Source: Rhodospirillaceae bacterium (lineage in GTDB: Bacteria; Pseudomonadota; Alphaproteobacteria; UBA828). From it: 32,136 nt of DNA. The notes below the pieces were generated by a model, which was not told the origin of the DNA, did no database searches, and saw nothing but the letters and a program-made list of their open reading frames with translations. The stretch spans positions 1 through 32,136 of the forward strand of contig PBDG01000044.1 of the NCBI GenBank assembly GCA_002717225.1. The letters are read 5' to 3'. The first letter of the stretch is position 1, and each line of letters begins with the position of its first letter. Shown here piece after piece: positions 3,989 through 32,136 of this stretch. The position numbers were made by a program, and so were the translations under genes.

Positions 3989-4023
3989 GACTTCTTCGGG
4001 CTTCATGCCGTAAAGCGTCAGGC

Positions 4024-7200: not shown

Positions 7201-7234
7201 AATGAGTTCCCCGCTGGATCCGCGGCTGATCCAG

Positions 7235-11791: not shown

Positions 11792-11819
11792 TCGGAGGCG
11801 TTACCTTCCGTCGCTCGCA

Positions 11820-12398: not shown

Positions 12399-12532
12399 GG
12401 CAGGACGTTCCTTCTCGTCGGAGTGCAACTCACCCCGGCAGAACCGCTGTTTGCTTCCCCAAGAAAAACATGTTCAAGAAATACTTGGTCGGTTCGCCGG
12501 CGGTGCGCTTGCCGCGCAAACAACGGCCGGCG

Positions 12533-13600: not shown

Positions 13601-14339
13601 AATCTCTTTCCTGCCTTGCATCGGCGCGCGTCGGGGGCGCAAAATCGTGATGCCGCGCCATTGCCTCGGCAACGATGAAATCGTACTCCTCGTCGATATC
13701 GACGGCGCGCTCGCGCGGCACTACGACGGCGCGCATGGGCGCCATGTAGATACGCTTTTCTTGCTGCAGCGCCGCCCGCCGCACCACCCAGACCGCACCC
13801 GCCGGCAATAGCGCCGGCTCGATGAGCTGAGTGTGCTGGCGTGTGCCAGCGAGGTCACCGCCCATCATCAATTCGACCTCGCCCCGTTCCGTCTTGCGAA
13901 ACATCCATTGCGGCGGCTCGCTAACCTGCCGGGCCAGAAAGCAGCAGCGCGTATCGCTCTCCTCGAGCCGGTCGAGACAGGCATCGATATGATCGGCCTC
14001 GATGAACGGCGCCGTCGGCTGGATGAGCGCCGCCAGATCGAATGTTTCACCGCATTCGCGGTCAAGAGTTTCCAAAGCATGCAGCAAGACCTGATCCGGG
14101 CCGACATAATCTTCAGCCAGCACCTCGGGCCGAAGGAAGGGAACATCGAGGCCCCAGGTCCGCGCCACTGCGGCGATCTCCTCGTCTTCAGTGGAGACGA
14201 CGACGCGGTCAAGCCGGCTTGCCTGCGCCGGCCGGCCGGCCCAAGCGAGCAGCGGTGCGCCGAGCAGCGGGCGAATCACCTTGCGTGGAATCCGCTTCGA
14301 TGCACCTCGGGCGACGATGACACCCAAGGACCGGGTCAT
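13593..14339 (-). CDS. legF: CMP-nonulosonic acid synthetase (NeuA/LegF-type cytidylyltransferase)
   Basis: This 248-residue enzyme should transfer CMP from CTP to the free nonulosonic acid. The N-terminal VIVARGASKRIPRKVIRPL is the CTP-binding P-loop-like motif of the CMP-NeuAc synthetase family (usual form ARGGSKxIPxKN), with Ala-Ser replacing Gly-Ser. ALIQPTAPFIEADHID is the sugar-binding region. RAVDIDEEYDFIVAEAM at the C-terminus carries the metal-binding Asp pair. The ATG at 14339 is preceded by GGGAG; an overlapping TTG at 14342 is less likely. In this operon the product would be CMP-legionaminate or a derivative. Size is normal and no key motif is missing. Confidence 0.9.
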   Translation of the reverse strand: MTRSLGVIVARGASKRIPRKVIRPLLGAPLLAWAGRPAQASRLDRVVVSTEDEEIAAVARTWGLDVPFLRPEVLAEDYVGPDQVLLHALETLDRECGETFDLAALIQPTAPFIEADHIDACLDRLEESDTRCCFLARQVSEPPQWMFRKTERGEVELMMGGDLAGTRQHTQLIEPALLPAGAVWVVRRAALQQEKRIYMAPMRAVVVPRERAVDIDEEYDFIVAEAMARHHDFAPPTRADARQERDYG

Positions 14340-14369
14340 CAAATAGCTCCCGCGACGAACGCCATAGCC

Positions 14370-15623
14370 TCACGACACTCGATGGCGCAGCTCCCAGCCG
14401 TCATTGATCCGGCGCCAGAGATGGGGCGAGCGAAAGCGGTCGGCGATCTCGAAAAACTCCGTCTCGTCGAGACCCAAATAGTTGAGGAACTCGGGAAAAA
14501 ATTTGCGCGGAAATTCTTCGTCGTAACGATGCACAAGAGCGACCGCCTCGTCGCGCTCAATATGATGGTTACGGATTTCCTGGCTCGCATCATAGGTTGC
14601 GCGGCCAATGCCGAACTTAATCAACGTCGTCCAGTAGTGATAGGGATCGGTCTTGTCGTCGATCGAGTTGTATTTCGAGTAGGTACCTTCGGTGCGTTCG
14701 GTATTAGCGACGAAATTCGTGTGCTCGACCGCGTAGTAATAATTCTGCTGTGGCGTCCATTGCAGGTAATAGCCGAGATAATGCACCTCGATCTCAGCAC
14801 CCGCGAGGACATCGGTATCGGCCGGCAGATAGGGCGTGATTTGCGCCGGCAACACGCCGTGCTCAGGCAGTTCTGAAATCGGCACGCCGCCAAGATACAT
14901 CTCCTCACCCTGGCTCTGCGCGAAATAGCGCTCACGCCGGCGCGCGCCCTCGTTCTCGTCGATGGGGTTGCCGTATTCCGCTTCATTCTCGCCATAAAAA
15001 ACCAGCGGTAGGTTCATTCTGAGCGCCATGGTGGGCGCGAAGTTTTTTTGACCGAGAATAAACGGCTGGAAGGGATGCAACAGATTCTCATAGGCCAGAC
15101 GGGTCAGCTTGCGATGCACCTGACCGTCCGGCGTGAAGAGATAATTGTCGAACCCGCCCATATGCAGCCAATTCTGGAAATTGCGCCAGCCCACATCGGT
15201 GTAGAGATGCGGCGCCCAGGTGACCGTCAGCGGATGCATATCGTATTTGGTCTTCAAGATATGCGAGGCATACACCGAATCCTTGCCTCCAGAGCCAGGC
15301 GCTAGGCAATCGTAGGAGCCGTTGCGTGAGCGGTACTTGTCGCACAGCGCACGAAGCGCCCGTTCGCGTTCCTCCCAATCGACCTCGACATCCTTCTGTT
15401 CGGCATAGCGGCAAGCGTCGCAGATACCGTCCTCGCCGAAGTGAATCGTATTCTTCTTGCTATCACGGCGATGTTGAAACTCGACGGAAGAAGACGGTCG
15501 CTGATTTGAGATAACGCAACGACCGCAGAACTTCACCTCGCCCGGCAATCCGTATTTGACTTCCAGCCGACCATCAACGGGATCGTCGATGAAATCCACC
15601 GCGTTATTACTCGAAACCACCAT
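14370..15623 (-). CDS. N-acetyl sugar amidotransferase (PseA/WbpG/PtmG-like)
   Basis: This 417-residue PP-loop ATPase has SGGKDS at 111-116 (adenylating the N-acetyl carbonyl). A probable zinc ribbon is formed by C33/C36 and C68/C71. Two further conserved stretches are APTMALRMNLPLVFYGENEAEYG and LGYYLQWTPQQNYYYA. The family converts an N-acetyl group to an acetamidino group using ammonia released from glutamine. The gene touches the HisH-like gene (TGA followed directly by ATG) and lies next to the HisF-like gene, the same trio as Pseudomonas WbpG/HisH2/HisF2. The likely substrate here is a legionaminate-type sugar or its precursor, as proposed for Campylobacter PtmG; a different hexosamine is possible. 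Confidence 0.92.
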   Translation of the reverse strand: MVVSSNNAVDFIDDPVDGRLEVKYGLPGEVKFCGRCVISNQRPSSSVEFQHRRDSKKNTIHFGEDGICDACRYAEQKDVEVDWEERERALRALCDKYRSRNGSYDCLAPGSGGKDSVYASHILKTKYDMHPLTVTWAPHLYTDVGWRNFQNWLHMGGFDNYLFTPDGQVHRKLTRLAYENLLHPFQPFILGQKNFAPTMALRMNLPLVFYGENEAEYGNPIDENEGARRRERYFAQSQGEEMYLGGVPISELPEHGVLPAQITPYLPADTDVLAGAEIEVHYLGYYLQWTPQQNYYYAVEHTNFVANTERTEGTYSKYNSIDDKTDPYHYWTTLIKFGIGRATYDASQEIRNHHIERDEAVALVHRYDEEFPRKFFPEFLNYLGLDETEFFEIADRFRSPHLWRRINDGWELRHRVS

Positions 15624-16259
15624 TCACTTTGTCCCAGTCACGCCAACCTCAGCAAAAAAATTTCGCAACATTTGCAGGCCAACCGGCCCACTCTTTTCAG
15701 GATGAAATTGACAGCCTACCACCTGTTCCTGCCTCACGATCGCCGGCACTGCGAGCCCATTGACATCGCTGGTCGCTACGATTGAATCGTCTTCCGCAAA
15801 GAAGCCGTAGGAATGAACGAAATAGGTCATGATATTGTCGGACAAGCCTTTGCACAGAGGGTCGTTTCGATGCTTGTCAAGTCTCCTCCAGCCCATATTG
15901 GGAATACGAATACCGCCCTGTGTGAAGGGCTCCGGCAGCGCACGCACCAAGCCGGGGATAATGCCGAGCCCGTCGCGTGCGCCAAATTCCTCGCTCTTCG
16001 CCGCGAGAATCTGCATGCCGAGGCAGATGCCGAGCAGCGGAATACCTTGGGAGGCGGCGTCGCGTAATGGTGTCACCAACTCCCGGTCCGCCAGCGCGTC
16101 CATGGCGTCGGCGAACGCCCCAACACCGGGTAGAACGATAGCCGCAGCCGCCCGAATATCCTCGGGTCGCTCGCTCACCGCATGGTCGACGCCTATGTGC
16201 GAGAGTGCGTGCGACAGGCTGTACAGATTGCCGCGGCCATAATCGATGACGGCAATCAC
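15624..16259 (-). CDS. hisH: HisH-like glutamine amidotransferase subunit for sugar amidination
   Basis: This 211-residue class-I glutamine amidotransferase has the nucleophile Cys79 in GICLGMQ and the His186/Glu188 pair in CQFHPEKSG. The oxyanion strand is in LPGVGAFADAM. It has complete catalytic residues and should release ammonia from glutamine and pass it to its HisF-like partner. The GTG start at 16259 overlaps the HisF-like stop (GTGA). No other his genes surround it, and the PseA/WbpG-type gene follows immediately. I therefore read it as the ammonia supplier for acetamidino-sugar formation, not as part of histidine biosynthesis. Confidence 0.92.
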   Translation of the reverse strand: MIAVIDYGRGNLYSLSHALSHIGVDHAVSERPEDIRAAAAIVLPGVGAFADAMDALADRELVTPLRDAASQGIPLLGICLGMQILAAKSEEFGARDGLGIIPGLVRALPEPFTQGGIRIPNMGWRRLDKHRNDPLCKGLSDNIMTYFVHSYGFFAEDDSIVATSDVNGLAVPAIVRQEQVVGCQFHPEKSGPVGLQMLRNFFAEVGVTGTK

Positions 16260-17020
16260 TGGCGAACCTCCCAGCCGGCAGTCGCCAGCTCAGATTTGAG
16301 TGCGGGTAGCGGCAGGCGGTCATAGTGAAACAACGAGGCGCAACAAACCGCATCGCACCGACTCTCTTCCAGAAGCATCTGAACATGCGCGCCTTCCCCT
16401 GCGCCGCCGCAAGCGATGATAGGCACCGAAACTCTATCTCGTACCGCCTTGACCAGTTCGATGTCGAACCCTTTTTCAGTACCTTCCATGTCTACCGACG
16501 TGACAAGGATCTCGCCAATACCCCGTGCCTCGGCCTCAGCTACCCAATCCAAAACGTCAACCCCGGTTTGCTCACGGCCATTGTCGGTCAGCGCCTCCCA
16601 CTTGCCGGCGTCCCGCCGTTTCGCTTCAACCGACAGCACGACGCATTGCCGGCCGAAGGCCTCGGCAGCTTCGGTGAGAAAGTCGGGTCGCTGAAGGGCG
16701 GCAGTATTGATGGCCACTTTGTCAGCACCACTCCTGAGCGCGGCAACGATATCCTCTACACTGCGAATAGCGCCGCCTACCGTCATCGGCACGAAGAGCT
16801 CGGCGGCAGCTTCTTCGACCACGGAAAGAATGCTGTTACGGCCGTAGAGCGACGCAACAACATCCATGTAAATAATTTCGTCTGCACCCTGCTCATAATA
16901 TTTTCGCACCATCGCGCCTGGTTGGCCGACCACCTTGAGTCCCTCCAGATGAATACCCTTGATCACATTGGGGCCCTTGATATCGATGCGGGCAATAATC
17001 CGGACCGGCGGCACATTCAT
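16256..17020 (-). CDS. hisF: HisF-like (beta/alpha)8 partner of the sugar amidotransferase
   Basis: This 254-residue TIM-barrel protein of the HisF2 subgroup begins RIIARIDIKGPNVIKGIHLEG and has the diagnostic stretch IIYMDVVASLYGRNS. Canonical HisF has CLDVK at the first strand and SVDAK at the fifth; here these are RIDIK and SVEAK. The first catalytic Asp is kept, but the cysteine and the second catalytic Asp are changed (to Glu). Such changes are seen in LPS-locus HisF2 proteins that channel ammonia to WbpG and do not make imidazole glycerol phosphate. The gene overlaps both neighbours by four bases (ATGA, GTGA), so the trio should be made in fixed ratio. Confidence 0.92.
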   Translation of the reverse strand: MNVPPVRIIARIDIKGPNVIKGIHLEGLKVVGQPGAMVRKYYEQGADEIIYMDVVASLYGRNSILSVVEEAAAELFVPMTVGGAIRSVEDIVAALRSGADKVAINTAALQRPDFLTEAAEAFGRQCVVLSVEAKRRDAGKWEALTDNGREQTGVDVLDWVAEAEARGIGEILVTSVDMEGTEKGFDIELVKAVRDRVSVPIIACGGAGEGAHVQMLLEESRCDAVCCASLFHYDRLPLPALKSELATAGWEVRQ

Positions 17021-18549: not shown

Positions 18550-19356
18550 TCATACATCGCTCTTTCTTGCCGGCTCGCCGGCATGTACAGCCTGGCGTGG
18601 ACGCCGCAGTACGGCACTTGCCTGGCCGACCGTCGTAGCCAGCCAGATCAGGTTGGCGCTCACTCCGAATGCTACGGTCAGGCCAAGGTAGACCCAGCGT
18701 CCTTCCGGCAGAAGGATTAGCCAAGGCGCAAAGCAATAGAGATTCATCGACAGCCGGACTGGCCAATTTCTTATCCGTTCAAAATAATTGATCCGTGCTG
18801 TGTCTTTATCGCTGAGAGGTCCGGTTCGCCTGATCATCCATTCGCGCACGAAGCTAAAACGGTGGCGTGCCGTCCCGGTCAGCAGCGCAATGATGCTGGC
18901 GATGCCACCGATCACCATCGCCGCACCGCCGCCACCATCCTCCCAAAGACCAATAGCGATAGCGAAGGGCGCCGCGAACAGAACGACATCGTCTGCAAAT
19001 CCATCAATGAACTTACCCCAGTAATTGCCCTTGTCGTCGAGCCGCGAAAGATTGCCATCGACGCAATCGAGCACATAGGCGAGCGTAAAAGCGACAAGCC
19101 CGACAAAGCCAACCCAATAGTTACCGATGGCGAACAGCACCAGGGAAAAACCGCCGATCAGAAGGCGGAGCAAAATCACTTGATCCGCGGTTACGCCCAA
19201 ATTGTAGAACGCCGGCGTCATCAGATTGGCGAGTGGGCGGGCAAAATAGGCGAGGCTAATTGGCTCGTCCTCCGGCGCGCGGAAGGACGCCCTTACTTCA
19301 GCCAACCCAATCCGGATACGGCCACCGGAAAACCTACCCGTGCGGCTCTCTGTCAT
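18550..19356 (-). CDS. CDP-alcohol phosphotransferase family membrane protein
   Basis: This 268-residue integral membrane protein has about six hydrophobic helices. The family motif D-x2-D-G-x2-A-R-x8-G-x3-D-x3-D is present as D97, D100-G101, S104-R105, G114, D118 and D122. The only change is Ala to Ser at 104. Enzymes of this class move a phospho-alcohol or phospho-aminoalcohol from a CDP or CMP carrier to a lipid or sugar hydroxyl. The ATG at 19356 has GGGGAG at good spacing; the longer reading to 19401 lacks support. It is the first gene of the long minus-strand operon. Because a phosphonate-activating gene lies 5 kb away, it could transfer a phosphonate head group; ordinary phosphatidyl or phosphoethanolamine transfer is equally possible. 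Confidence 0.85.
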   Translation of the reverse strand: MTESRTGRFSGGRIRIGLAEVRASFRAPEDEPISLAYFARPLANLMTPAFYNLGVTADQVILLRLLIGGFSLVLFAIGNYWVGFVGLVAFTLAYVLDCVDGNLSRLDDKGNYWGKFIDGFADDVVLFAAPFAIAIGLWEDGGGGAAMVIGGIASIIALLTGTARHRFSFVREWMIRRTGPLSDKDTARINYFERIRNWPVRLSMNLYCFAPWLILLPEGRWVYLGLTVAFGVSANLIWLATTVGQASAVLRRPRQAVHAGEPARKSDV

Positions 19357-19508
19357 GAGTCTCCCCAGTCTGAATGTTTGTTTGCAAAAGCCGCCACCCA
19401 AGCGATCCCATTTGCGCTATCAATCGCTCCAGCTTCGCGGTATTCCTAATGAACATGTCTCAGCGAGTTCATGACCGCCCGCGCAGGGCCAGATGGAAGG
19501 CCCGGATC
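19357..19508. promoter_or_regulatory. Divergent intergenic region between the long minus operon and the hydrolase gene
   Basis: About 150 nt separate two genes that point away from each other, so promoters for both must lie here or overlap the coding starts. The segment is moderately AT-rich around 19371-19400, including a TTTGTTTGCAAAA stretch. I could not identify a convincing -35/-10 pair on either strand. Confidence 0.35.
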
Positions 19509-20687: not shown

Positions 20688-21785
20688 TCAGCCCAGCGCC
20701 TGGAGAAGGGCCACTGCTTCCGCCTGGTGCGCCAGATCCTCGCTATGCTGAAGTGGTAGATAGAGAAATTTCCGCTGTTCGGGCGTCAGGAGACGATCAA
20801 AGCCTTTCGCCATGGATTCGCGGTGCGCCTCAAGTGCCATCGCATCGCTGGCGACGGCACCCACGCCGCCGCGATGAATGTTACGGGAAAACTGATCCAA
20901 CAGAAGAATCTCGGCAAGCGCGCCCCAGGGAGTCACACGCCAACCGCGCATCTCACCGAGAACCGCGCGCGCGTGAAGATCGACGAATCTCTCCCGCACC
21001 TCTCTGTCAAAAACCACGTCCTTGGCATGCCACAGTTTCGGATTCGCCTCCTCAAACCAGAAATCTAGTATATTCCAAACATCAACACCGCCCTCGCGCT
21101 GAAATGCCTCCTCTTCAGCCAACCACTCGGCGGCATAGGACACATTCTGCCAATTGTCGAACCATGGGCCACCTCTCGTATAGTGAACCACGTTCGGCGG
21201 ATAGCCGTCCTCGGGTGGTTGGCTCCATCCTTCAAGCCAATTCCAAGTCTCTGCAACGGCCCCGAGCTCGTCATCCTCTAACCACTGAAAACGATGAAGG
21301 AAAGCACCGGTCTCGGCGCTTACCTTTTCAGGGGATAGCGCGCGGTTTTTAGGGTGACCGCAATTGTAGAGCACCAATGAAGACCAATTCTTGCGCGGAT
21401 ATACTGTCTGCACAGATCCATCCATCTTCATGGTTTCGGGTGGCCGGTGATCATGGTGTACGCACATCGCCGCATAACGGTCGTCGATTTGATCGATTAA
21501 TTTCTGCACGTCACCAAGCCACAAAAAATCGCAATCACAGAAGATTGCCCAGCCATCAAATCCAGCAAGGTGCGGGACCAAAAACCGGGTGTAGGTAAAT
21601 TCGGTGGATGCTAGCGGATCAGTCGCCCGCGAATAGATTCCTGCCTCGCGCAAAACCTGTTGCCGCAATGCGATGACCTGAACGGGTTCAGAAGTGCGAT
21701 CTAAAATCGAATGACGACACACTTGGTACGCGATATCCTCGCGGCTGTCCCAGCCAACATAGATTCGAATTGGTTGTTTAGTCAT
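20688..21785 (-). CDS. GT8-like glycosyltransferase fused to a shortened DUF924 domain
   Basis: This fusion has 365 residues. Residues 1 to about 225 look like a small GT-A glycosyltransferase of the GT8-like type: IRIYVGWDSREDIAYQV at the start, TEFTYTRFLVP, and the metal/nucleotide motif D84-C-D86 in FCDCDFLWLGD. Residues 235-365 match the first two thirds of DUF924 (VWNILDFWFEE, PWGALAEILLLDQFSRNIHRG, PLQHSEDLAHQAEAV). The family normally continues for about 50 residues, including a RFGRFPHRN-type segment that is missing here, and I do not find it in other frames after the stop. The start was set at the ATG at 21785, where the domain begins; neither this nor 21824 has a clear ribosome-binding site. 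It may add a sugar to the glycan; the role of DUF924 is unknown. Confidence 0.75.
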   Translation of the reverse strand: MTKQPIRIYVGWDSREDIAYQVCRHSILDRTSEPVQVIALRQQVLREAGIYSRATDPLASTEFTYTRFLVPHLAGFDGWAIFCDCDFLWLGDVQKLIDQIDDRYAAMCVHHDHRPPETMKMDGSVQTVYPRKNWSSLVLYNCGHPKNRALSPEKVSAETGAFLHRFQWLEDDELGAVAETWNWLEGWSQPPEDGYPPNVVHYTRGGPWFDNWQNVSYAAEWLAEEEAFQREGGVDVWNILDFWFEEANPKLWHAKDVVFDREVRERFVDLHARAVLGEMRGWRVTPWGALAEILLLDQFSRNIHRGGVGAVASDAMALEAHRESMAKGFDRLLTPEQRKFLYLPLQHSEDLAHQAEAVALLQALG

Positions 21786-22074
21786 GGGGCTTGGATTTTT
21801 CAGTGGTTTGCACGGGCGTGTCATAGCGTGCGACCAAGAATAGTTTGCAAACTAAGTCACAGTAACCGCTTAAAACGAGGAATTGAGCAGACGAGCAGAT
21901 CATAAAATTGTGCCCAAATTTCAGCGTCGAAAGCATCTCCTCTCTAAAACTATTTCTCAGACTAGGTCTCGATCAGCCAAAAATGGAAAACGTGACGCTG
22001 CAAATTGCAGATGTGAGGTGCGCAACAATTCAAATTCGAATACCGCCGGTGGACGAATTGGAAGCGGGTGTGAT
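21786..22074. promoter_or_regulatory. Divergent intergenic region upstream of legB with two palindromes
   Basis: Two genes diverge from this 289-nt AT-rich stretch. It contains a perfect 14-bp palindrome, TAGTTTGCAAACTA (21841-21854), and a 13-bp one, CTGCAAATTGCAG (21998-22010). Either could be an operator, as both share a TTGCAAA/GCAAATTGC-type core. An open reading frame in phase with legB extends back across most of this region, but its codons look random and the conserved domain starts only near 22,100. I could not place a promoter with confidence. Confidence 0.4.
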
Positions 22075-23109
22075 ATGAGCGCCGCCATGACCAACAGTGA
22101 CAATGAATTCAGCGGCAAGCGAGTTTTGGTGACGGGTGCCGACGGCTTTATCGGCTCCCACCTGGCCGAAGCACTGGTGCACACAGGCGCTGAGGTTACC
22201 GCACTTGCATTCTACAACTCCTTTGGCACCTGCGGTTGGCTCGATGAAATCGCTAATGAGACACGCTCCGCCATGCACATCGAGCTCGGCGATGTGCGGG
22301 ACGGCGTACAGATGCGCTCCCTCGCAGAGGGCATCGATATCATCTTTCACCTGGCAGCGTTGATCGGCATTCCCTATTCCTATGTTGCTGCGCAATCCTA
22401 CGTCGACGTCAACATCCACGGCACGCTCAATCTTTTGGAAGCGTCGCGCACCGGCATGGTAGGACGCTTCATTCATACTTCGACTAGCGAGGTCTATGGC
22501 TCGGCGCAAACCAGACCAATCTGCGAAGATCATCCGCTGCATGGCCAGTCACCCTATGCAGCGAGCAAGATCGGCGCCGATCAGATGGTCGAAGCCTTCG
22601 TCCGCTCGCATGGCATACCAGCGGTAACGCTCCGCCCGTTCAACACTTTCGGCCCACGCCAAAGTGAGCGTGCGGTGATCCCGACGACTATTCGCCAAAT
22701 GCTCGATCCGGCTTGCACGAAGATTTTTCTGGGAGATCTCAGCACAACACGCGATTTCACCTTCGTCGGCGATACAGTGCGTGCGTTTCTCGCCCTTGGC
22801 GGCGCCGCGAACGCAGAATTTGGTAAAGTCTACAACGTCGGCACCGGCGTCGAAATCAAAGTCAGCGAAGTGGTAACCCAACTCGGCGATATCACAGGCT
22901 GCAACAAGCCGATCGTCAGTGAAGAGACGCGCATTCGCCCGGAACATTCCGAGGTTCGCTCGCTCGTTGCCGACGCAACGCGTCTGACCAACCTTTCCGG
23001 CTGGCAGCCGCAAACCGTTCTTGAAGACGGCCTTAGCCGTTGCATCGACTGGTGGCGCGAGCGCATCGCCAGTGGACGCCAGCGTCGCAACAACAGTTAC
23101 GTCCGTTAG
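22075..23109 (+). CDS. legB: NAD-dependent nucleotide-sugar 4,6-dehydratase (LegB-type SDR)
   Basis: This 344-residue extended short-chain dehydrogenase has an NAD-binding VTGADGFIGSHL near residue 20, the catalytic region HTSTSEVYG with the YxxxK pair in SPYAASKIGADQM, and PFNTFGPRQSERAVIPT. Very LegB-like diagnostic stretches are LAFYNSFGTCGWLDEI, AALIGIPYSY and LGDLSTTRDFTFVGDT. LegB removes water from nucleotide-linked GlcNAc to give the 6-deoxy-4-keto intermediate for LegC. The ATG at 22075 has GGAAG about 10 nt upstream; a second ATG at 22087 is less likely. It is encoded on the opposite strand and 16 kb from legC, in a more AT-rich part of the island. Confidence 0.92.
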   Translation: MSAAMTNSDNEFSGKRVLVTGADGFIGSHLAEALVHTGAEVTALAFYNSFGTCGWLDEIANETRSAMHIELGDVRDGVQMRSLAEGIDIIFHLAALIGIPYSYVAAQSYVDVNIHGTLNLLEASRTGMVGRFIHTSTSEVYGSAQTRPICEDHPLHGQSPYAASKIGADQMVEAFVRSHGIPAVTLRPFNTFGPRQSERAVIPTTIRQMLDPACTKIFLGDLSTTRDFTFVGDTVRAFLALGGAANAEFGKVYNVGTGVEIKVSEVVTQLGDITGCNKPIVSEETRIRPEHSEVRSLVADATRLTNLSGWQPQTVLEDGLSRCIDWWRERIASGRQRRNNSYVR

Positions 23110-23416: not shown

Positions 23417-24049
23417 TCACCTGTTGCTACTCGGCAGCGCTTCCAACGATCGGGTCACGCCAAGTATCGAAGGAACGAGCACGCGGAGCGGTTGTAGTTC
23501 GCCGATCAGCCCATCATAGATAGCTTGTGGCTCGTTTAGTGCTGTAAGGATTGCCGCGTCGGGGCGGTCTAACGCACTGAGCGCTTTAACTACTGAAAGA
23601 CCCAGGCAGGTCTCACCAGCTCGCCCAGGGGCAACGACCCCTTGCAGCACCACATCGTGTTCGCGTGCCGAAAGGATGGCGATTTCCGCCAATTCGCCAT
23701 CACCAGCTAGGGCCAAGTGGCGCCAGCCAGCTGCAGTACATTGCATGAAGATTTCATTATATTGCACCCGCGCGCGGCGAAAGAAGGTCAGCGAATCTGA
23801 GAGATATTCTGCGGTAAGGCGGGTTTTTTCAGTAAACCCCTGGGGCGTTAGATAATAGGCGTAGCGATTCGGTGGAATTTCGCTAATTTTGATCAATCCT
23901 TTTCGCACACACCGCTTCACATAGCTGTTGGTCATACCGAGCGCGATGCCTAATTCCTTGGCCAAAGTGCGCTGATTGACATTTTCCGATTCGCCGACAC
24001 GGACCAAAATGTCGCGGATAATAGCGTCGTCACGATCTTTGCGGCTCAT
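23417..24049 (-). CDS. Winged-helix transcriptional regulator with a C-terminal Rossmann-like domain
   Basis: This 210-residue protein has a winged helix-turn-helix in about residues 10-75: NQRTLAKELGIALGMTNSYVKRCVRKGLI is the helix-turn-helix and NRYAYYLTPQGF the wing. This pattern is common in regulators next to surface-polysaccharide genes. A linker helix (LTFFRRARVQYNEIF) leads to a C-terminal domain with LALAGDGELAEIAIL and VVLQGVVAPG. That domain resembles the nucleotide/CoA-binding Rossmann fold of the PglD N-terminus, so it may sense a nucleotide sugar. It is transcribed away from the phosphonate operon. The shared gap contains three identical-pattern inverted repeats that are the obvious candidates for its binding sites. 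The start at ATG 24049 has only a weak ribosome-binding site. Confidence 0.83.
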   Translation of the reverse strand: MSRKDRDDAIIRDILVRVGESENVNQRTLAKELGIALGMTNSYVKRCVRKGLIKISEIPPNRYAYYLTPQGFTEKTRLTAEYLSDSLTFFRRARVQYNEIFMQCTAAGWRHLALAGDGELAEIAILSAREHDVVLQGVVAPGRAGETCLGLSVVKALSALDRPDAAILTALNEPQAIYDGLIGELQPLRVLVPSILGVTRSLEALPSSNR

Positions 24050-24422: not shown

Positions 24423-26099
24423 ATGGCGACAAAAATCGAGGGTGCAACAAACAGAGCGGCGCTACGCACCAAAACGCAGAAACTTAAGCATGCGCTAGTC
24501 AAAGAAAAACTCGCCTTCGTCATGGAAGCGCATAACGGCCTGTCGGCGAAGATTGTCGAGGAAGCAGGATTCGAGGGTATCTGGGCTTCCGGACTCTCTA
24601 TGTCCGCGGCCCTCGGCGTGCGTGACAATAATGAGGCCTCCTGGACCCAGATACTCGAGCAACTCGAATTCATGGCTGATGCCACCAGCATCCTAATTCT
24701 AGTCGACGGCGATACCGGCTATGGCAATTTTAACAATGTCCGTCGGCTTGTAAAAAAGCTTTGCCAACGCGGCATCGCCGGCGTCTGCATCGAAGATAAG
24801 CTCTTTCCCAAGACCAACAGCTTCATCGGCGAAGGTCAACCACTCGCCGATGTCGAAGAATTTTCCGGCCGTATCAAGGCTGGCAAAGACAGTCAGGACG
24901 ATTCAGATTTCCAGATAGTTGCCCGTGTTGAGGCCCTGATTTCTGGTCATGGGATGACAGAGGCGTTGAGGCGCGCTGAAGCCTATCACGCCGCCGGTGC
25001 CGACGGCATCCTGATCCATTCGAAGAAGGCTGAAGCAGATGAAATTCTCGATTTTGGTCGCGAATGGGCGGGACGGGCACCTTTGGTGATAGTCCCGACC
25101 ATGTATTACAAGACACCAACCGACGTATTTCGCGAGACAGGTGTTTCTCTCGTCATTTGGGCCAATCACAATCTTCGAGCCGCTTTGAGCGCCATGCGTG
25201 AGACCAGTCGGCGCATCATGGAAGAGCAGGCCCTAACTTCGGTGGAAAGCGAGGTGGCAAGTGTCAAGGAAGTCTTCGATATCGTGGGCCAAGGTGAATT
25301 GGCAGCGGCCGAAGCAAGATATCTTAAACCCAAGAGCGGTGAATATAAATGCATCGTGCTAGCCGCGTCGCGCGGCTCGGCTCTTGGAATCCTCACAGAG
25401 CGTCTGCCCAAATGCATGCTCGATATCCGTGGAAAGCCGCTTCTTCATAGGTTGGTGACAACACTCAACGAAGGTGGCCTGCGCGATATTTGCGTAGTTC
25501 GCGGCTACCAGAAGGAAGCCATTAACCTTGCCAATATCCGTGCCATCGACAATGACGCTTATGCTAAGTCTGGCGAGGCGACGTCATTGGCCTGCGCTAC
25601 CGATCAATTAGATGGTGCGACAATCATCTCCTACGGTGATATCCTATTCCGGCCCTATATTTTAGAAAATCTGCTCGCCACCACAGGCGACATCACCACA
25701 GTGATCGACGCGCGCTGGCGCGGAGCCGGTCACTGGGAAGCTGGACGGCAGGTGGATCTTGCTAGCTGTAGTCGCACCTTCACCGGCGAATATCTTGACG
25801 AGGAACCGATCCTGTTAACTGCCCTTCACACGAGAGACGGTGACAGTGAAGATAACAACGACGGTGAATTCTCTGGCGAATTTATCGGCCTTATCAAATT
25901 AAGCACAAAAGGGGCGGCGGCTGTAAAGCGTGAATTGGCAGCGATGAAATCTGAGGGTGTCCTTGACATGGCCGACCTGCCGAACCTCCTCAACCGTCTA
26001 ATCGCCACTGGTGAGTCCGTCGAAGTACTCTATGTGACAGGGCATTGGCTTGATGTCGACGATGCTTTCGACCTTGCCAAGGCACGTAATGTGGTGTGA
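24423..26099 (+). CDS. aepX: Phosphoenolpyruvate mutase fused to a nucleotidyltransferase-like domain
   Basis: This fusion has 558 residues. The first 285 or so form a PEP mutase/isocitrate-lyase-type barrel: [19 protein letters not shown] (metal-binding) and [10 protein letters not shown] at 124-133, the EDK-x5-NS signature that separates true PEP mutases from lyases. It should convert PEP to phosphonopyruvate, making the C-P bond. From about residue 309 a nucleotidyltransferase-like domain follows ([24 protein letters not shown], later ISYGDILF and TGHWLDVDD). In related PepM fusions this part is a PntC-like cytidylyltransferase that activates a phosphonate as its CMP ester. Here the usual G-x-G-x-R loop reads S-R-G-S-A, lacking the expected Arg, so activity of this half needs caution. 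The ATG at 24423 follows AGGCGAAAC; the frame is open back to 24378 but without support. Confidence 0.92.
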
Positions 26100-26124
26100 G
26101 CCCGATAAGCGAAAAGTATAGCGC

Positions 26125-27276
26125 ATGATCACGGCAGCCGATTTTCTTGAGCCCGCCCGGGAGCTGGGTTACGATTTTTACTCGGGTGTGCCGTGCTCTT
26201 TTCTTACGCCGCTAATAAATCGGGTTATATCCGATCCCAGACTCAACTATGTCGGCGCGGCAAGCGAGGGCGAAGCGATGGCAATTGCGTCCGGCGCCTG
26301 GCTTGCCGGTCGCAAGACGGTGGTGATGTGCCAAAATTCTGGCCTCGGCAACATGGTCAACCCACTTACATCACTGAATTGGCCGTTCCGCATTCCAAGC
26401 CTCTTGATCGTCACCTGGCGCGGCAAGCCTGGCCTTAAGGACGAGCCTCAGCACGAATTGATGGGCAGAGTTACCGGCCAGTTACTTGATACAATCCAGG
26501 TGCGTCACACAACTTTCCCCAGGTCGCCTGGAGAAATCCCTGGCGCGCTGGAAACGGCGGAGCAACACATTTCTGAGACTGGCCTCCCTTTCGCCTTGAT
26601 CATGGAAAAGGGCTCGGTTGGCGATGAACCGCTCGACCAACCCAAACCAACAACACCACTTGCAAGCCTCCTAAAGGACAGATCGAAAGGTGGCCCGCGC
26701 CCTGCGCGTGCCACTGTGTTGCAGAAATTACTCGATATTGTATCGGAAGACACAGCTATCATCGCAACAACGGGCAAGACCGGGCGAGAACTATTTACTC
26801 TGGACGATCGCTGCCAGCAACTCTACCAAGTTGGCTCAATGGGCTGTGCAAGCGCAATGGGGCTTGGCGTCGCACTCAACACATCCCACCCCGTGATCGT
26901 CATCGACGGCGACGGTGCAGCACTTATGAAGATGGGAACACTCGCCACCATTGGAGCCTACCGGCCAGAAAATCTCGTCCATCTTGTGCTAGACAATGGC
27001 GTGCACGATTCGACAGGCGGTCAGGCAACGGTCTCGCCCAGCGTCTCATTCTCCGCCGCCGCCGGAGCTTGCGGGTATCCGAAATCCCACTCGTGCGATT
27101 CGATCGACGGCTTCGCAGCCGCTCTAAAAGATGGACTGGCAGGCGCCAAGCCTTGCCTGATTCATCTCCTTATCGCGCCGGGCTCGCTCACCCCACTTGG
27201 ACGACCAACGATAACGCCATCCCAAGTAGCGCGGCGTTTCAGGGAATTTCTCACATCGCAAAACTCCCCGTATTAA
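26125..27276 (+). CDS. aepY: Phosphonopyruvate decarboxylase
   Basis: This 383-residue thiamine-diphosphate enzyme should pull the unfavourable PEP mutase reaction forward by decarboxylating phosphonopyruvate to phosphonoacetaldehyde. The N-terminal PYR domain starts YDFYSGVPCSFLTPLINRV. The conserved AASEGEAMAIASGAWLAGRK contains the activating Glu. The C-terminal PP domain has the metal/ThDP motif from GDGAALMKMG (about 262) to LDNG (about 290). Length is normal for Ppd and shorter than general ThDP decarboxylases. It lies 25 nt after the PEP mutase gene, clearly in the same operon. Its end overlaps by 4 nt the end of the convergent NusG-like gene. No aminotransferase or alcohol dehydrogenase for phosphonoacetaldehyde follows directly. 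Confidence 0.94.
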   Translation: MITAADFLEPARELGYDFYSGVPCSFLTPLINRVISDPRLNYVGAASEGEAMAIASGAWLAGRKTVVMCQNSGLGNMVNPLTSLNWPFRIPSLLIVTWRGKPGLKDEPQHELMGRVTGQLLDTIQVRHTTFPRSPGEIPGALETAEQHISETGLPFALIMEKGSVGDEPLDQPKPTTPLASLLKDRSKGGPRPARATVLQKLLDIVSEDTAIIATTGKTGRELFTLDDRCQQLYQVGSMGCASAMGLGVALNTSHPVIVIDGDGAALMKMGTLATIGAYRPENLVHLVLDNGVHDSTGGQATVSPSVSFSAAAGACGYPKSHSCDSIDGFAAALKDGLAGAKPCLIHLLIAPGSLTPLGRPTITPSQVARRFREFLTSQNSPY

Positions 27277-27770
27277 AGTGGTTCGATATCGTTACCGGAA
27301 ACCGAAACCCGCACCTCTCGGCCCATCAGTTTCAACAAAATCATCACCCGGTCGGAATCGAGTTCGGTCTCGAATATGCCTTCCAGATCGGCCATAGGCC
27401 CGCCCTGTACGCGCACCTGGTCACCAGCTTTGACAACGCTGCGTGAAATCTCGAAGTTGCCATCCTCGCCGGCCCGGGCGCGCAAACCCGAGACAATGTC
27501 ATCGCCAATACGGAGTGGACCGTCGGCGCCGGACACAATCGTGTGCACACCAAAAGTTGAAAGGATCGGCCTCCAGGGCTCGGAAGACATATCAAGGCGA
27601 ACGAAGAGATAGCGCGGAAAAAGTGGTCGCAGAACAGTTTCGACTCGGCGCGCATGACGACGCATTTTATAATACATCGGTAGCCAGACTTCATAATCCT
27701 GGCGCAAGAGGTTGGTCTCAGCGCGGCGTTCCGAGTTGGCCCTACAATGAACCACGTACCAATTTCGCAT
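27273..27770 (-). CDS. NusG-like specialised transcription elongation factor (RfaH/NusG paralogue)
   Basis: This 165-residue protein starts NWYVVHCRANSERRAETNL, the NGN domain that binds the RNA polymerase clamp. It continues with VLRPLFPRYLFVRLD and ends in a KOW domain (KAGDQVRVQGGPMADLEGIF). It is about the size of RfaH. Isolated NusG paralogues inside polysaccharide islands usually prevent premature termination of the island's own long operons. An 18-gene minus-strand operon nearby would suit such a factor. The ATG at 27770 has GGAAG 5 nt upstream, and the longer reading to 27836 is unsupported. The gene stands alone: it is convergent with the decarboxylase gene and divergent from the next membrane protein gene. 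Confidence 0.9.
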   Translation of the reverse strand: MRNWYVVHCRANSERRAETNLLRQDYEVWLPMYYKMRRHARRVETVLRPLFPRYLFVRLDMSSEPWRPILSTFGVHTIVSGADGPLRIGDDIVSGLRARAGEDGNFEISRSVVKAGDQVRVQGGPMADLEGIFETELDSDRVMILLKLMGREVRVSVSGNDIEPL

Positions 27771-27849
27771 TTGTCTTCCGAACAGTTTCCGTTTCCAACG
27801 AGCCCCTGAACCGAGTAGACTTCGCGCGGCGCGCAATCAAGCAAATTCC
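27771..27849. promoter_or_regulatory. Short divergent gap between the NusG-like gene and the flippase-like gene
   Basis: Seventy-nine nucleotides separate two diverging genes, so both promoters should be here or just inside the neighbouring starts. I see no convincing -35/-10 pair and no copy of the GTTCA-N5-TGAAC repeat. Confidence 0.35.
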
Positions 27850-28872
27850 ATGCCCCCGGAACAAATTACCGCAAGCTCAAAATATTCTGTCAAGCGACTC
27901 ATGATGATCGCCGCTAAACTCGCAGTCACTGGCGTTCTGATTTGGTATTTGCTGAGCAAGGTAGATTTAGCAAAAAGCGGCGAGCATCTTGCATCTTTCG
28001 ATGTCGGGTGGGGCTTGCTCGCGGTATTGGCGCTGGCTTCAATTTTTCTTATTGCTTCAGTGCGCTGGAGAATTTATGCGCGAGCGCTAAAAATACCGCT
28101 CGGCAAAGGTATTGCCTTTCGTATCTATCTCATCAGCCAGTTTCTTGGCCAGGTCTTGCCTGCAGGAATCGGAAATGATGCGGTGCGCGTCTGGCTTTTG
28201 GCACGACATGGAAATGCCGTCGGACCGAGCGCCTCGAGTGTCGTTCTGGAGCGTCTTACCGGACTGATTGGCAATATAGTGCTAATCGCTGCCCTGTTGC
28301 CCCTCACCTTTACCTATATCGACGACACCAGCATCCGTTTGGTTGTCATTTTGGTCGTCGCCATCTGCGCAGCTGGAATCTTTGCCCTATTTGGAATTTC
28401 TTTTCTCCCACATCTAATGACCAAATGGCGAAGCGTAGCCATGATTTCCAGGCTGGCTGACATCGCGAGCGAGGCGCGACGCGCTAGCTTTATGCTAAAA
28501 CCCGCCGCAACGGCTTTCCTGCTTTCATTATCAATGCACCTCACTGCGGTATTGGCTGCCTACTTGATTGCGCTCGGGCTTGATCTCGAACTTTCAGCAG
28601 AGGCGTGCTTGGCGCTCATGCCCATCGTTCTTTTGTTGGGCACGCTGCCAATATCCCTCGCAGGGTGGGGCGTGCGTGAAGGAGCAGCGGTAACGGCACT
28701 GAGCTATGCCGGTGTCGCATCGAGCGAAGCACTGACACTATCGATCCTGTTTGGTCTCTCGTTATTGACGGTCAGTCTATTTGGCGCGATCTTCTGGCTG
28801 TTCCAGCGGCGCAGCACAGTGCTCACACGGGTAAATGAAAAGAAATCCGGCAACGAGGCCGCGCTGCAATGA
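27850..28872 (+). CDS. LPG-synthase-TM/flippase-like integral membrane protein (UPF0104 type)
   Basis: This 340-residue polytopic protein has about eight hydrophobic segments. It shows the layout of the lysylphosphatidylglycerol_synthase_TM/AglD family: SVRWRIYARAL, then FRIYLISQFLGQVLPAGIGNDAVRVWLLARHG with SVVLERLTGLIGN, and the late LPISLAGWGVREGAAVTAL motif. Proteins of this group sit beside polyprenyl-phosphate glycosyltransferase genes and are thought to move or protect lipid-linked sugars; only a few have proven roles. The stop overlaps the start of the methyltransferase-GT2 gene (ATGA), linking it to that module. An internal ATG at 27901 is a possible alternative start. Confidence 0.84.
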   Translation: MPPEQITASSKYSVKRLMMIAAKLAVTGVLIWYLLSKVDLAKSGEHLASFDVGWGLLAVLALASIFLIASVRWRIYARALKIPLGKGIAFRIYLISQFLGQVLPAGIGNDAVRVWLLARHGNAVGPSASSVVLERLTGLIGNIVLIAALLPLTFTYIDDTSIRLVVILVVAICAAGIFALFGISFLPHLMTKWRSVAMISRLADIASEARRASFMLKPAATAFLLSLSMHLTAVLAAYLIALGLDLELSAEACLALMPIVLLLGTLPISLAGWGVREGAAVTALSYAGVASSEALTLSILFGLSLLTVSLFGAIFWLFQRRSTVLTRVNEKKSGNEAALQ

Positions 28873-30365
28873 ACTCACATACCAAACCACTCCGTCTCAA
28901 CACCGATAACACTGCCGAACAAGCGCGCGTGCGTCGCGCCAGCCAGATCCGCGAGTACTATGATCGATTAGCACCTAACCGTGATAAATGGATCGCGCGA
29001 AACGCCTATTTTCACAATGAGGACAGCCGTTATACGCGCTTTCTTGTTCCTTCCGGGCTTAAGGTATTGGATCTAGGCTGCGGCACCGGACATATGCTGG
29101 CCAAACTCCAACCGTCTGAAGGCGTCGGCATCGATATTAGCCCAAAAATGATCGAGGCAGCACAGCGAAATTACCCGGCTAAGAGCTACCCCAACCTTGA
29201 ATTTATGGCCGGCGATATTGAGGACCCCGCGGCTCTCGATGCGCTGGACGGCCCATTCGAAGTGATCATCCTGTCGGATACCGTTGGTCTCCTGGAGGAT
29301 GTCGAAGCTACCTTCGCGAGTCTTCACCGCCTATCTTCCAGAGAAACCCGGATTGTGGTCGCCTATTATTCCTGGCTGTGGACGCCGGCCATTACTTTTG
29401 CCGAGTTTTTGGGTGCCAAAATGCGCCAGGTCCCGCTTAACCGACTAGGGCCTGAGGATGTGTCGGGACTCCTGGAACTCGCCGATTTCGACGTCATCAA
29501 ACGCGATTGGCGCCAGCTTGTGCCAAAACGACTGTTCGGCCTCGGTCCGCTTATCAACCACTCCCTGGCCACCCTGCCTATCCTCCGTCGCCTCAGCGTG
29601 CGCCATTACGTAATCGCCCGCTCGCGCCGCTTTGCCGGGCTCGACAATCCCTCGACCACTGTCGTCATTCCGTGCCGTAATGAGCGTGGCAATATCGCGC
29701 CTGCGGTCTCCAGGTTGCCAGATTTCTGCAGCGACGTCGAAATCCTCTTCGTTGAAGGCCATAGCAAGGACGGCACGCAAGAGGAGATCGAACGAGTCAT
29801 TCATAGCAATCCAGAGCTCGATATCAAGCTGATAACACAAACAGGAAAAGGTAAGGGTAGCGCCGTGCGCGAGGCGTTCGACGCGGCGCGCGGCGAAGTT
29901 CTCATGATCCTCGACGCTGATCTCACCGTCCCACCCGAGGCGCTACCCAAATTTTACGAAGCGCTCGTCAGCGGGAAGGGTGAATTCATAAATGGCACCC
30001 GACTGGTCTATCCGATGGAAAAACGCGCCATGCGGCCACTCAATCTGATCGCCAACCTTTCCTTCTCAGTGATATTCTCCTGGCTTTTGAATCAGCGCTT
30101 TACCGATACTCTTTGCGGCACCAAGGTGCTATCCAAGGCACATTATCTTAGCATCGCGAAGAACCGCGCCTATTTCGGAAATTTCGATCCGTTCGGCGAT
30201 TTCGACCTGATTTTTGGCGCCTCCAAGCTGAACCTCAAAGTGATCGAAATTCCCATACGCTATGCCGAGCGGACATATGGCACGACGCAGATTTCTCGCT
30301 TTCGCCACGGCGTGCTGCTCCTGCGCATGGTGATCTTCGCTTTCCGCAAACTCAAGGCATTATGA
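28869..30365 (+). CDS. SAM-dependent methyltransferase fused to a GT2 (DPM1-like) glycosyltransferase
   Basis: This fusion has 498 residues. Residues 1 to about 250 are a class-I methyltransferase: REYYDRLAPNRDKW, the SAM-binding VLDLGCGTGHML and the acidic GVGIDIS. Residues about 260-498 are a GT2 glycosyltransferase of the polyprenyl-phosphate mannose/glucose synthase type: TTVVIPCRNERGNI, FVEGHSKDGT, metal-binding DAD in LMILDADLTVP, and late segments NGTRLVYPM and TDTLCGTKVL. The GT half probably makes a polyprenyl-phosphate-linked sugar on the cytoplasmic face. The methyltransferase half may methylate a sugar or a quinone-like acceptor. ATGA overlaps at both ends couple it to its neighbours. 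It carries no membrane helices beyond a weak segment near the C-terminus. Confidence 0.87.
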   Translation: MNSHTKPLRLNTDNTAEQARVRRASQIREYYDRLAPNRDKWIARNAYFHNEDSRYTRFLVPSGLKVLDLGCGTGHMLAKLQPSEGVGIDISPKMIEAAQRNYPAKSYPNLEFMAGDIEDPAALDALDGPFEVIILSDTVGLLEDVEATFASLHRLSSRETRIVVAYYSWLWTPAITFAEFLGAKMRQVPLNRLGPEDVSGLLELADFDVIKRDWRQLVPKRLFGLGPLINHSLATLPILRRLSVRHYVIARSRRFAGLDNPSTTVVIPCRNERGNIAPAVSRLPDFCSDVEILFVEGHSKDGTQEEIERVIHSNPELDIKLITQTGKGKGSAVREAFDAARGEVLMILDADLTVPPEALPKFYEALVSGKGEFINGTRLVYPMEKRAMRPLNLIANLSFSVIFSWLLNQRFTDTLCGTKVLSKAHYLSIAKNRAYFGNFDPFGDFDLIFGASKLNLKVIEIPIRYAERTYGTTQISRFRHGVLLLRMVIFAFRKLKAL

Positions 30366-31105
30366 TGTTGGGCGCCACGCCGGCGGCTGCGATTCTTGAT
30401 ATTTATCGAGGAACATGGCGCAGCAAGGCGGCACTTCGCGCGATCTACGGTGACTATTACCGGCGCATGGTGAAGGGACTGAAAGCCGGTCCGACCCTCG
30501 AACTAGGCGCGGGTAGCGGGCATTTGCGCGAGCATCTCAGCGACGTGGTGCTAACCGATATTCAGCCAGCATCCTGGCTCGATGCCACTGCGGACGCGCA
30601 AATGCTTCCCTTTAAAGACGCCTGCTTCGAAAGTGTTCTCATGCTGGATGTGCTGCATCATATCGAGAATCCGCCGCGGTTTTTCGCCGAGGCGGCACGC
30701 GTGCTTAAGCCCGGTGGGCGGGTAGCGATGGTTGAGCCGGCGATAACACCCCTCAGCGGGTTCTTTTACCGCTATATGCATCCCGAGCCGGTCGATATGC
30801 GCGCGGATCCGTTCATCAGCCCAAAAGCAGACCCGAATCGCTCGCCCTATGACGCCAATCAGGCGGTGCCCACTCTATTATTTCACCGCCACCGCAAACG
30901 ATTCGAACGTTATTTTCCGGATTTCCGACTACGGGAAGTGCGCTATTTGAGCCTCTTCGCCTACCCGCTTTCCGGCGGATACCGGCGCTGGAGTCTAGTC
31001 CCGGCATTTCTGGTCCGTCCAATTCTGTTGGGCGAAGACGCGCTCCTCAAGCTTCTCGGCCCAGCCATGGCTTTCCGACTCCTGGTCCATTTGGAGCGGA
31101 GATAG
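30362..31105 (+). CDS. Class-I SAM-dependent methyltransferase
   Basis: This 247-residue protein has the SAM-binding motif TLELGAGSGHLREHL (about residues 45-59), an acidic loop in VVLTDIQP, and the methyltransferase-11-type strand FESVLMLDVLHHIENP followed by RVLKPGGRVAMVEP. The C-terminal part (FERYFPDFRLREVRYLSLFAYPLSGGY) is hydrophobic and typical of enzymes acting on lipid-linked or sugar substrates. Its ATG overlaps the stop of the preceding fusion gene (ATGA). A second methyltransferase in one module suggests at least two methylations of the same glycan or lipid; the acceptor is unknown. Confidence 0.87.
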   Translation: MMLGATPAAAILDIYRGTWRSKAALRAIYGDYYRRMVKGLKAGPTLELGAGSGHLREHLSDVVLTDIQPASWLDATADAQMLPFKDACFESVLMLDVLHHIENPPRFFAEAARVLKPGGRVAMVEPAITPLSGFFYRYMHPEPVDMRADPFISPKADPNRSPYDANQAVPTLLFHRHRKRFERYFPDFRLREVRYLSLFAYPLSGGYRRWSLVPAFLVRPILLGEDALLKLLGPAMAFRLLVHLERR

Positions 31106-31123: not shown

Positions 31124-32136
31124 ATGATCGAAAAACGCACGCTTTGGCTCATATTTACTGCCGCAACCCTGGTTCGTCTTGCCTATACGCTGGGACTATA
31201 TATCGCCCTGGGCGCCGAAACCTTCCTCGTCGAGGATTCAGACCTCTATCTTTCTCTCGGACGGGACTTCGTGACGGAAGGCGATTTTGTCCGCCTGCTG
31301 GATGGAGAGCCCGGCTATCGGGTTGAGACTGAGCGCATGCCACTCTACATCATTTGGCTAGCGATCCATCAATGGCTGAGCGGGTCAATGACTCCTCTGT
31401 TCCCGGCACTGACACAAGGTGCGGTGGACGCCTTTGCCTGCGTCTTGATTGCACGGACCGCTGCGTTACTTGATCCCCGCCTCTTGCTGCCTGCAGGATT
31501 AATTGCCTCGTTCAATCCGACGCAATTTGTGGTCAGCGCTATGATACTCACAGATTCCCTTTTCTTTTTCTTCGTCTGTCTCATGCTCTATGCCGCCATT
31601 AAATGGCTACGCGAGCCGAATTGGCGCTGGACACTGCTGCTGGGTCTCGCCCTGGGCCTCGGCGTCTCCACTAGAGTCATGCTACTGCCCGCGGTTGCCG
31701 CACTCGCGATCGTACTACCGCTCGCTCTTGTTTGGTTACGGCGCTTCCGTGTGGCGGCACTTGCCCATGTTGTCGCCTTTGTCATTATTTGCGTTACGCT
31801 TCAAGCGCCTATATTAGTGCGCAATGTTAGCATGTACGGATCCGTGCAGCTTACCAGCCAAGCAGGCGCCCACACTTTACTCTGGCTTGCACCAGCAGTT
31901 CTGGAAGCAGTCGACGGCACACCGCATGCGGAAGGCGCGCGGATCATGCAGACGCGCTACGAAAAAGGACTAGGCGGACCGCAATCAGTCAATCCATTTG
32001 AGCGGTCTGCACAGATGTCGGAAGCGGCGTGGCGCGCCATCGGCGATCTCGGCACCGGCGCCATAATTAAGGCCTGGCTTACCGGCGCAGCGATCAGCCT
32101 GTTTTCACCTGCCGCCATTCTCTCGCCACCAGTGAG
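31124..32136 (+). CDS. ArnT/PMT-like (GT-C) membrane glycosyltransferase, N-terminal part (runs off the right edge)
   Basis: At least 337 codons are open from the ATG at 31124, 18 nt after the previous stop, to the edge. The protein starts with a membrane helix (TLWLIFTAATLVRLAYTLGLYIALG). It then has a periplasmic loop with acidic VEDSDLYLSLG, the position of the catalytic Asp in GT-C enzymes (ArnT, PMT, RgtA families). At least six further hydrophobic segments follow, including ILTDSLFFFFVCLMLYAAI and the long LLLGLALGLGVSTRVMLLPAV. Such enzymes take a sugar from a polyprenyl-phosphate carrier and add it to lipid A, a glycan or a protein outside the membrane. It pairs naturally with the upstream DPM1-like domain. 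Its C-terminal soluble domain is outside the window. Confidence 0.82.
   Translation, partial: MIEKRTLWLIFTAATLVRLAYTLGLYIALGAETFLVEDSDLYLSLGRDFVTEGDFVRLLDGEPGYRVETERMPLYIIWLAIHQWLSGSMTPLFPALTQGAVDAFACVLIARTAALLDPRLLLPAGLIASFNPTQFVVSAMILTDSLFFFFVCLMLYAAIKWLREPNWRWTLLLGLALGLGVSTRVMLLPAVAALAIVLPLALVWLRRFRVAALAHVVAFVIICVTLQAPILVRNVSMYGSVQLTSQAGAHTLLWLAPAVLEAVDGTPHAEGARIMQTRYEKGLGGPQSVNPFERSAQMSEAAWRAIGDLGTGAIIKAWLTGAAISLFSPAAILSPPV

Follow-up and report, generated by a model that had tools for sequence, protein, structure and literature searches.

A probable 2-aminoethylphosphonate pathway dispersed over three loci of a Rhodospirillaceae genome, with a candidate phosphonotransferase in a hopanoid operon

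The 32,136-nucleotide stretch of Rhodospirillaceae DNA analysed here (the window, part of contig C42 of a genome assembly of 74 contigs that is 87% complete with 3.8% contamination) carries two genes for the opening steps of phosphonate synthesis next to a set of legionaminate-type sugar genes, and an earlier note on it held the final phosphonate to be unknown for want of a transaminase. Which phosphonate could this bacterium make, and to what would it be attached? From protein families and gene order we consider it fairly probable that the genome encodes a dispersed 2-aminoethylphosphonate (AEP) pathway that ends at a CDP-alcohol phosphotransferase; this degree of confidence does not extend to a hopanoid acceptor, which is discussed separately below.

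Phosphonate genes in the window and elsewhere in the genome

The first of the two genes (24423-26099, forward strand; matches to TIGR02320, PF13714 and PF12804) encodes a PEP mutase, PepM (residues ~16–302), fused to a C-terminal domain of LicC/PntC fold (residues ~307–558). Its mutase part scores 382.6 bits against TIGR02320 in profile searches (cut-off 319.55), has the Mytilus PEP mutase as its best PDB relative (E 6e-117), and carries in its translation, at residues 124–133 (24792-24821, forward strand), a signature of the EDKxxxxxNS type that is the PEP mutase motif (PMC6697681). The C-terminal part is an NTP_transf_3 domain, as expected from the earlier description of a mutase joined to a nucleotidyltransferase-like (NTase-like) domain; PepM proteins fused to PF12804 domains, the arrangement common to the window and to the survey that described it in 2019, are frequent and account for about one third of the PEP mutases surveyed there (PMC6697681). 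The second gene, ppd (26125-27276, forward strand), encodes a ThDP-dependent phosphonopyruvate decarboxylase, Ppd (TIGR03297, 422 bits, cut-off 312.5), and is present in 18 of the 20 genomes examined of the window's family. With both enzymes above curated cut-offs and the signature in place, the claim that a C-P bond is made here is borne out; as assigned from their families, PepM would convert PEP to phosphonopyruvate and Ppd would convert this to phosphonoacetaldehyde. Relatives of the pepM-NTase fusion were searched for in viral contigs and none was found. The phosphonatase PhnX (TIGR01422), looked for as a mark of a catabolic phosphonate cluster, gave no match in 14 family genomes, and the control search likewise matched nowhere. 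In one genus of the family (g6; genomes G010, G013, G015, G017, G018 and G019) pepM-NTase and ppd lie on different contigs and pepM-NTase lies without a surface-glycan block, which scatters the pathway still further than in the window genome.

The absence of an AEP transaminase (AEPT) that the earlier note recorded holds for the window but not for the genome: the search for phnW or aepZ that it had proposed returned a single AEPT above cut-off in the whole genome, on contig C36 (TIGR03301, 434.9 bits, cut-off 360.8), an enzyme that would convert phosphonoacetaldehyde to AEP. An AEPT above cut-off is found in 27 of 33 genomes examined, the six exceptions being incomplete or fragmented assemblies or having weaker matches only, so nearly all well-covered relatives have one and the product need not be left unnamed on this ground. 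In a phylogenetic tree the C36 copy sits within the clade of its own genus with a support of 100/99; we therefore take it to be native, and binning contamination was rejected as its source. In the same tree, AEPT copies that are linked to a mutase do not form groups apart from the mutase-less ones, and two of its rows (G062 and G072) have branches too long for placement.

Candidates for the two remaining steps lie together on a third contig, C33 (locus L114), in the gene order hpnG, shc, hpnA, CDP-alcohol phosphotransferase, PntC, hpnD, hpnC, dxr. The hopanoid genes among these are recognised by shc (squalene-hopene cyclase) at 799 bits, hpnA at 501 (cut-off 368), hpnD at 302 (cut-off 279) and hpnC at 244 bits, just below its cut-off; a second squalene-hopene cyclase gene (698 bits) lies at G000:C58:36340-38205. 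The stand-alone PntC-type cytidylyltransferase (7795-8538 of the locus) would convert AEP to CMP-AEP, and the small CDP-alcohol phosphotransferase (7035-7682), whose DxxDGxx(A/S)R...GxxxDxxxD motif is intact, would release CMP and place the AEP group on the hydroxyl of an acceptor at the membrane. Beyond phosphonoacetaldehyde, all substrates and products are inferred from family membership and gene company, as are the acceptor and the enzyme that serves as transferase. The stand-alone NTase scores E 8.5e-7 against 2xme and E 1e-6 against 6pd1, and it and its partner are about as similar to inositol-phosphate enzymes as to PntC, so that CMP-AEP is a presumed product of the NTase. In the IPCT-DIPPS pair of inositol-phosphate synthesis an NTase is likewise partnered by a CDP-alcohol phosphotransferase, with similar sequence scores, but the pair considered here co-occurs with PepM, Ppd and AEPT.

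The Pnt pathway of Treponema denticola and Atopobium rimae (PMC6697681) shares PepM, Ppd, AEPT and a LicC-type cytidylyltransferase with the window genome. It differs in that the genes here are split over three loci, and in that the candidate transferase is the CDP-alcohol phosphotransferase of the hopanoid operon instead of a LicD-like enzyme.

Co-occurrence and gene neighbourhoods in relatives

The fused mutase was found in 30 of 142 relatives, counting matches better than 1e-100. A stand-alone PntC is present in 28 of these 30 genomes and in 4 of the 112 others, squalene-hopene cyclase in 29 of 30 and 23 of 112, and a strong AEPT match in 26 of 30 and 10 of 112. Outside the window's family, PntC occurs in 10 of 11 fused-mutase genomes and in 2 of 110 without it (p 6e-12), and the cyclase in 11 of 11 and 21 of 110, respectively (p 1e-7). 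All co-occurrence tests here treat genomes as independent; the set from outside the family has, for the most part, a single genome per family, which reduces the effect of shared ancestry without abolishing it. A separate sample of Caulobacteraceae (n = 199) has the cyclase in all seven carriers of the fused mutase and in 29 of 199 genomes overall (p 7e-7).

The comparison of neighbourhoods of PepM-NTase fusions that had been suggested gave PntC, the CDP-alcohol phosphotransferase and hopanoid genes as constant partners across the class. In other alphaproteobacterial families the fused mutase, Ppd, AEPT, the stand-alone PntC-like NTase and the small CDP-alcohol phosphotransferase form one cluster that often adjoins hopanoid genes, and not, as in the window genome, a set of genes spread over the unlinked contigs C42, C36 and C33. 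Eighty loci around the fused mutase were compared in all. Among the 60, from public genomes, that span ≥12 kb, Ppd is found in 52, a PntC-like NTase in 44 (a few of these matches may be the fused domain itself), the CDP-alcohol phosphotransferase in 36, AEPT in 35, HpnA in 17 and the cyclase in 15. The 15 loci with the cyclase within 10 kb of the fused mutase compare with about 0.3 expected by chance, and after exclusion of fused-domain matches a stand-alone NTase remains in 50 of the 80 loci. One locus, L177 (NZ_VCCH02000054.1), is titled Mycobacterium sp. KBS0706 and is probably misnamed or contaminated, as its phosphonate-hopanoid genes look alphaproteobacterial.

Squalene-hopene cyclase is absent from the genomes of Agrobacterium cavarae (L208) and Stappia stellulata (L212), both of which have the fused mutase, and no CDP-alcohol phosphotransferase of the C33 type is present at their fused-mutase loci. 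Because these two bacteria lack the cyclase, hopanoids are neither obligatory for such systems nor the sole acceptor in all of them.

Acceptor and product

Because the PntC-type enzyme and the transferase lie inside a hopanoid operon and the fused mutase tracks the cyclase, the most likely acceptor of AEP is a membrane lipid. That this lipid is a hopanoid polyol is possible but well short of probable, and we would only tentatively propose a hopanoid with an AEP (or hydroxylated) head group, built through CMP-AEP and the CDP-alcohol phosphotransferase of the hopanoid operon, with the fused PntC-fold domain as a non-catalytic regulator. The evidence on the destination pulls in two directions, since the hopanoid genes, PntC and CDP-alcohol phosphotransferase are partners across the class, whereas at the level of the window's family the neighbours are surface-glycan genes (below).

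A linkage of this kind was reported in 2021, when a Roseomonas PEP mutase was found linked to squalene-hopene cyclase, AEP was predicted and an 'undiscovered terpene-phosphonate' was suggested (PMC8776678). Those Acetobacteraceae clusters have the same mutase-cyclase linkage, and the linkage alone was reported; here it spans many alphaproteobacterial families, some genomes with unlinked loci among them, with PntC and the CDP-alcohol phosphotransferase named as the genes that connect the two pathways. The text of a 2025 survey of alphaproteobacterial hopanoids does not contain the word 'phosphonate' (PMC12583986), which we counted against the hopanoid reading, and a literature search whose coverage ended short of subscription journals found no description of a phosphonohopanoid. 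What we believe to be new is that the pathway is completed from the rest of the genome, that the PntC and CDP-alcohol phosphotransferase pair ties it to hopanoid operons, that the co-occurrence has been put in numbers, and that the fused domain has lost active-site residues (below). For the attachment of bacterial cell-surface phosphonates, the analysis offers a candidate transferase in the conserved CDP-alcohol phosphotransferase encoded next to a PntC-type enzyme, and it suggests membrane lipids, with hopanoids more tentatively among them, as the acceptors in a lineage that is widespread in the sea and in soil. Since hopanoids also serve as geological biomarkers, an overlooked class that bears phosphonates, if it exists, would have consequences for lipid analysis and for the study of marine phosphonate cycling.

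CDP-alcohol phosphotransferases (PF01066) normally act on lipid or polyol alcohols, and by analogy with the Kennedy pathway the acceptor could be diacylglycerol, with CMP-AEP and diacylglycerol giving an AEP phosphonolipid and the hopanoid linkage reflecting co-regulation of membrane-lipid genes. The usual substrates of the family and the two fused-mutase genomes without the cyclase are consistent with this possibility, to which we give some weight but not the larger part; it leaves unexplained the cyclase in 11 of 11 and 7 of 7 fused-mutase genomes of independent families, and the CDP-alcohol phosphotransferase gene that adjoins hpnA.

AEP as the product could also be questioned. AEP hydroxylases are PhyH-like, and 31 of the 60 longer loci of other families have, next to the fused mutase, a gene for a PhyH-family dioxygenase, which could hydroxylate AEP (for example L055:8033-9043). 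We nonetheless regard another product, such as 1-hydroxy-2-aminoethylphosphonate or 2-hydroxyethylphosphonate, as unlikely for the window genome, since AEPT is present and conserved, and the neighbourhoods of pepM in the window's family show no PhyH-family gene beside it.

The fused domain and the sugar island

The fused NTase-like domain (25341-26096, forward strand) was studied with alignments, AlphaFold2 and Foldseek. Its AlphaFold2 model (pLDDT 93) has as its best PDB match in Foldseek the PntC-AEPT protein 6PD2 (E 1.1e-17, query TM 0.74), with LicC next, and in this model the LicC/PntC fold is present. The acidic metal-site residues are retained and the domain is strongly conserved. However, where the PntC loop reads GxG(T/S)R...PK the window domain reads SRGSA...PK. 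In the alignment, with residue numbering checked against 6pd1, Ala320 (codon 25380-25382) stands at the position of Arg15 of T. denticola PntC, the equivalent of Lys153 is also alanine, and Lys330 (codon 25410-25412), the equivalent of Lys25, is kept. The same pattern is seen in 102 fused domains (mostly from Alphaproteobacteria, with a few from Verrucomicrobia and one from a deltaproteobacterium, and about a dozen of them second copies from the same genome): Arg15 is kept in 1 of the 102 and in 62 of 62 stand-alone enzymes, Lys153 in 7 of 102 and 61 of 62, and Lys25 is invariant (100%) in both groups. The stand-alone enzyme of C33 has the equivalents of all three residues (LAAGIGRRIGNVTEGKPK and the Lys153 column of the alignment).

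Replacement of Arg15, Lys25 or Lys153 by alanine leaves T. denticola PntC with <10% of its activity (PMC6697681). The fused domain differs from that enzyme in lacking Arg15 and Lys153, both of which PntC needs, and this argues that it is probably not the CMP-phosphonate synthase; it is probably instead a regulatory or differently specific partner of PepM. The earlier suggestion that it makes a CMP-phosphonate is thus weakened, in that its PntC fold stands but the two residues are lost and a canonical stand-alone PntC is encoded elsewhere in the genome. We find it doubtful that the fused domain is nonetheless a divergent but active synthase, with the C33 cytidylyltransferase serving another compound: the fold, the Lys25 equivalent, the acidic metal-site residues and the strong conservation would fit such activity, but the Arg15 and Lys153 equivalents, either of whose replacement costs the T. 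denticola enzyme >90% of its activity, are not conserved, and a stand-alone PntC co-occurs almost 1:1 with the fused mutase. The active-site residues of PepM-fused NTP-transferase domains should be checked before these are counted as PntC.

The legionaminate-type island (299-17020, reverse strand) lies outside the phosphonate pathway proper, and the presence of such flanking genes, as first described, is confirmed by LegC, NeuB-type, NeuC-type and WbuX matches above cut-offs. Its genes, all on the reverse strand, encode NeuB-type (299-1528; 448 bits, cut-off 400), NeuC-type (1374-2597; 428 bits, cut-off 236), LegC (5070-6239; 471 bits, cut-off 420), a PtmE-like CBS-NTase (12533-13672), a CMP-sugar synthetase (13593-14342), WbuX (14370-15623; 350 bits, cut-off 203), HisH (15624-16259) and HisF (16256-17020) proteins. 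A LegB-like 4,6-dehydratase is encoded by an ORF at 21883-23109 on the forward strand (TIGR04180, 396 bits, below the cut-off of 475), whose true start is probably near 22060. LegB, LegC, NeuC/LegG, NeuB/LegI, PtmE, a CMP-sugar synthetase and a WbuX/HisH/HisF-type amidotransferase are also the components of loci for legionaminate of the acetamidino type, which are separate from the phosphonate pathway and are linked to it here by adjacency alone.

The window is not devoid of a recognisable phosphonotransferase, as had been stated, since a CDP-alcohol phosphotransferase gene, possibly for a second phosphonotransferase, lies in the island at 18550-19401 (reverse strand; PF01066, 32.9 bits, cut-off 22); its D-x2-D-G-x2-S-R...G-x3-D-x3-D motif is intact and its product is 33% identical over 118 amino acids to the C33 enzyme, a distant relation. 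A homologue is present at 1 of the 80 fused-mutase loci, and it was rejected as a general phosphonotransferase on this ground.

In the window's family pepM adjoins sugar or glycolipid genes, not hopanoid genes, and pepM-ppd keeps constant neighbours: a MarR-type EPS-associated regulator to the left of pepM (23417-24049, reverse strand; PF13412; TIGR04176, 59.6 bits, below the cut-off of 88) and, to the right of ppd, an RfaH/NusG-type antiterminator (27273-27836, reverse strand; PF02357; TIGR01955, 131 bits, cut-off 144.5), an LPG_synthase_TM/flippase-like membrane protein (27850-28872; PF03706), a methyltransferase-GT2 fusion (28869-30365) and a PMT-type glycosyltransferase (31124-32136; PF02366, PF13231) that extends past the window to contig position 32509, the last three on the forward strand, as is a further methyltransferase gene (30362-31105). 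LegB, PtmE-like and LegC-like genes recur to the left of pepM-ppd within the family; within the genus, LegB orthologues that are 77–79% identical adjoin pepM in three relatives and PtmE-like genes (~49%) recur beside it, in one case also with NeuB, NeuC and LegC homologues. This recurrence, the conserved flippase-like, GT2 and PMT genes, the island transferase and the frequent adjacency of glycan genes to marine phosphonate clusters (PMC8931226) would fit decoration of a legionaminate-containing surface glycan with AEP or another phosphonate, the 18550-19401 product being the transferase, yet we judge this quite improbable, since relatives' neighbourhoods contain no homologue of that transferase, pepM-ppd is constant in relatives in which the cassettes of the island have diverged or are missing, and position is the sole link between the two products.

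The sugar island also contains a gene for a radical SAM protein with a SPASM domain (6232-7200) and a short ORF with a SPASM domain only (11820-12428), and near these are encoded a large protein that matches no Pfam family (8208-10007) and an ABC transporter (10007-11791); together they may form a peptide-modification system. Finally, the ORF at 20688-21824 joins an N-terminal stretch of ~250 residues without a Pfam match to a DUF924 domain; genus relatives have shorter homologues that are separate from each other, so that the ORF may be a fusion or a frame artefact.
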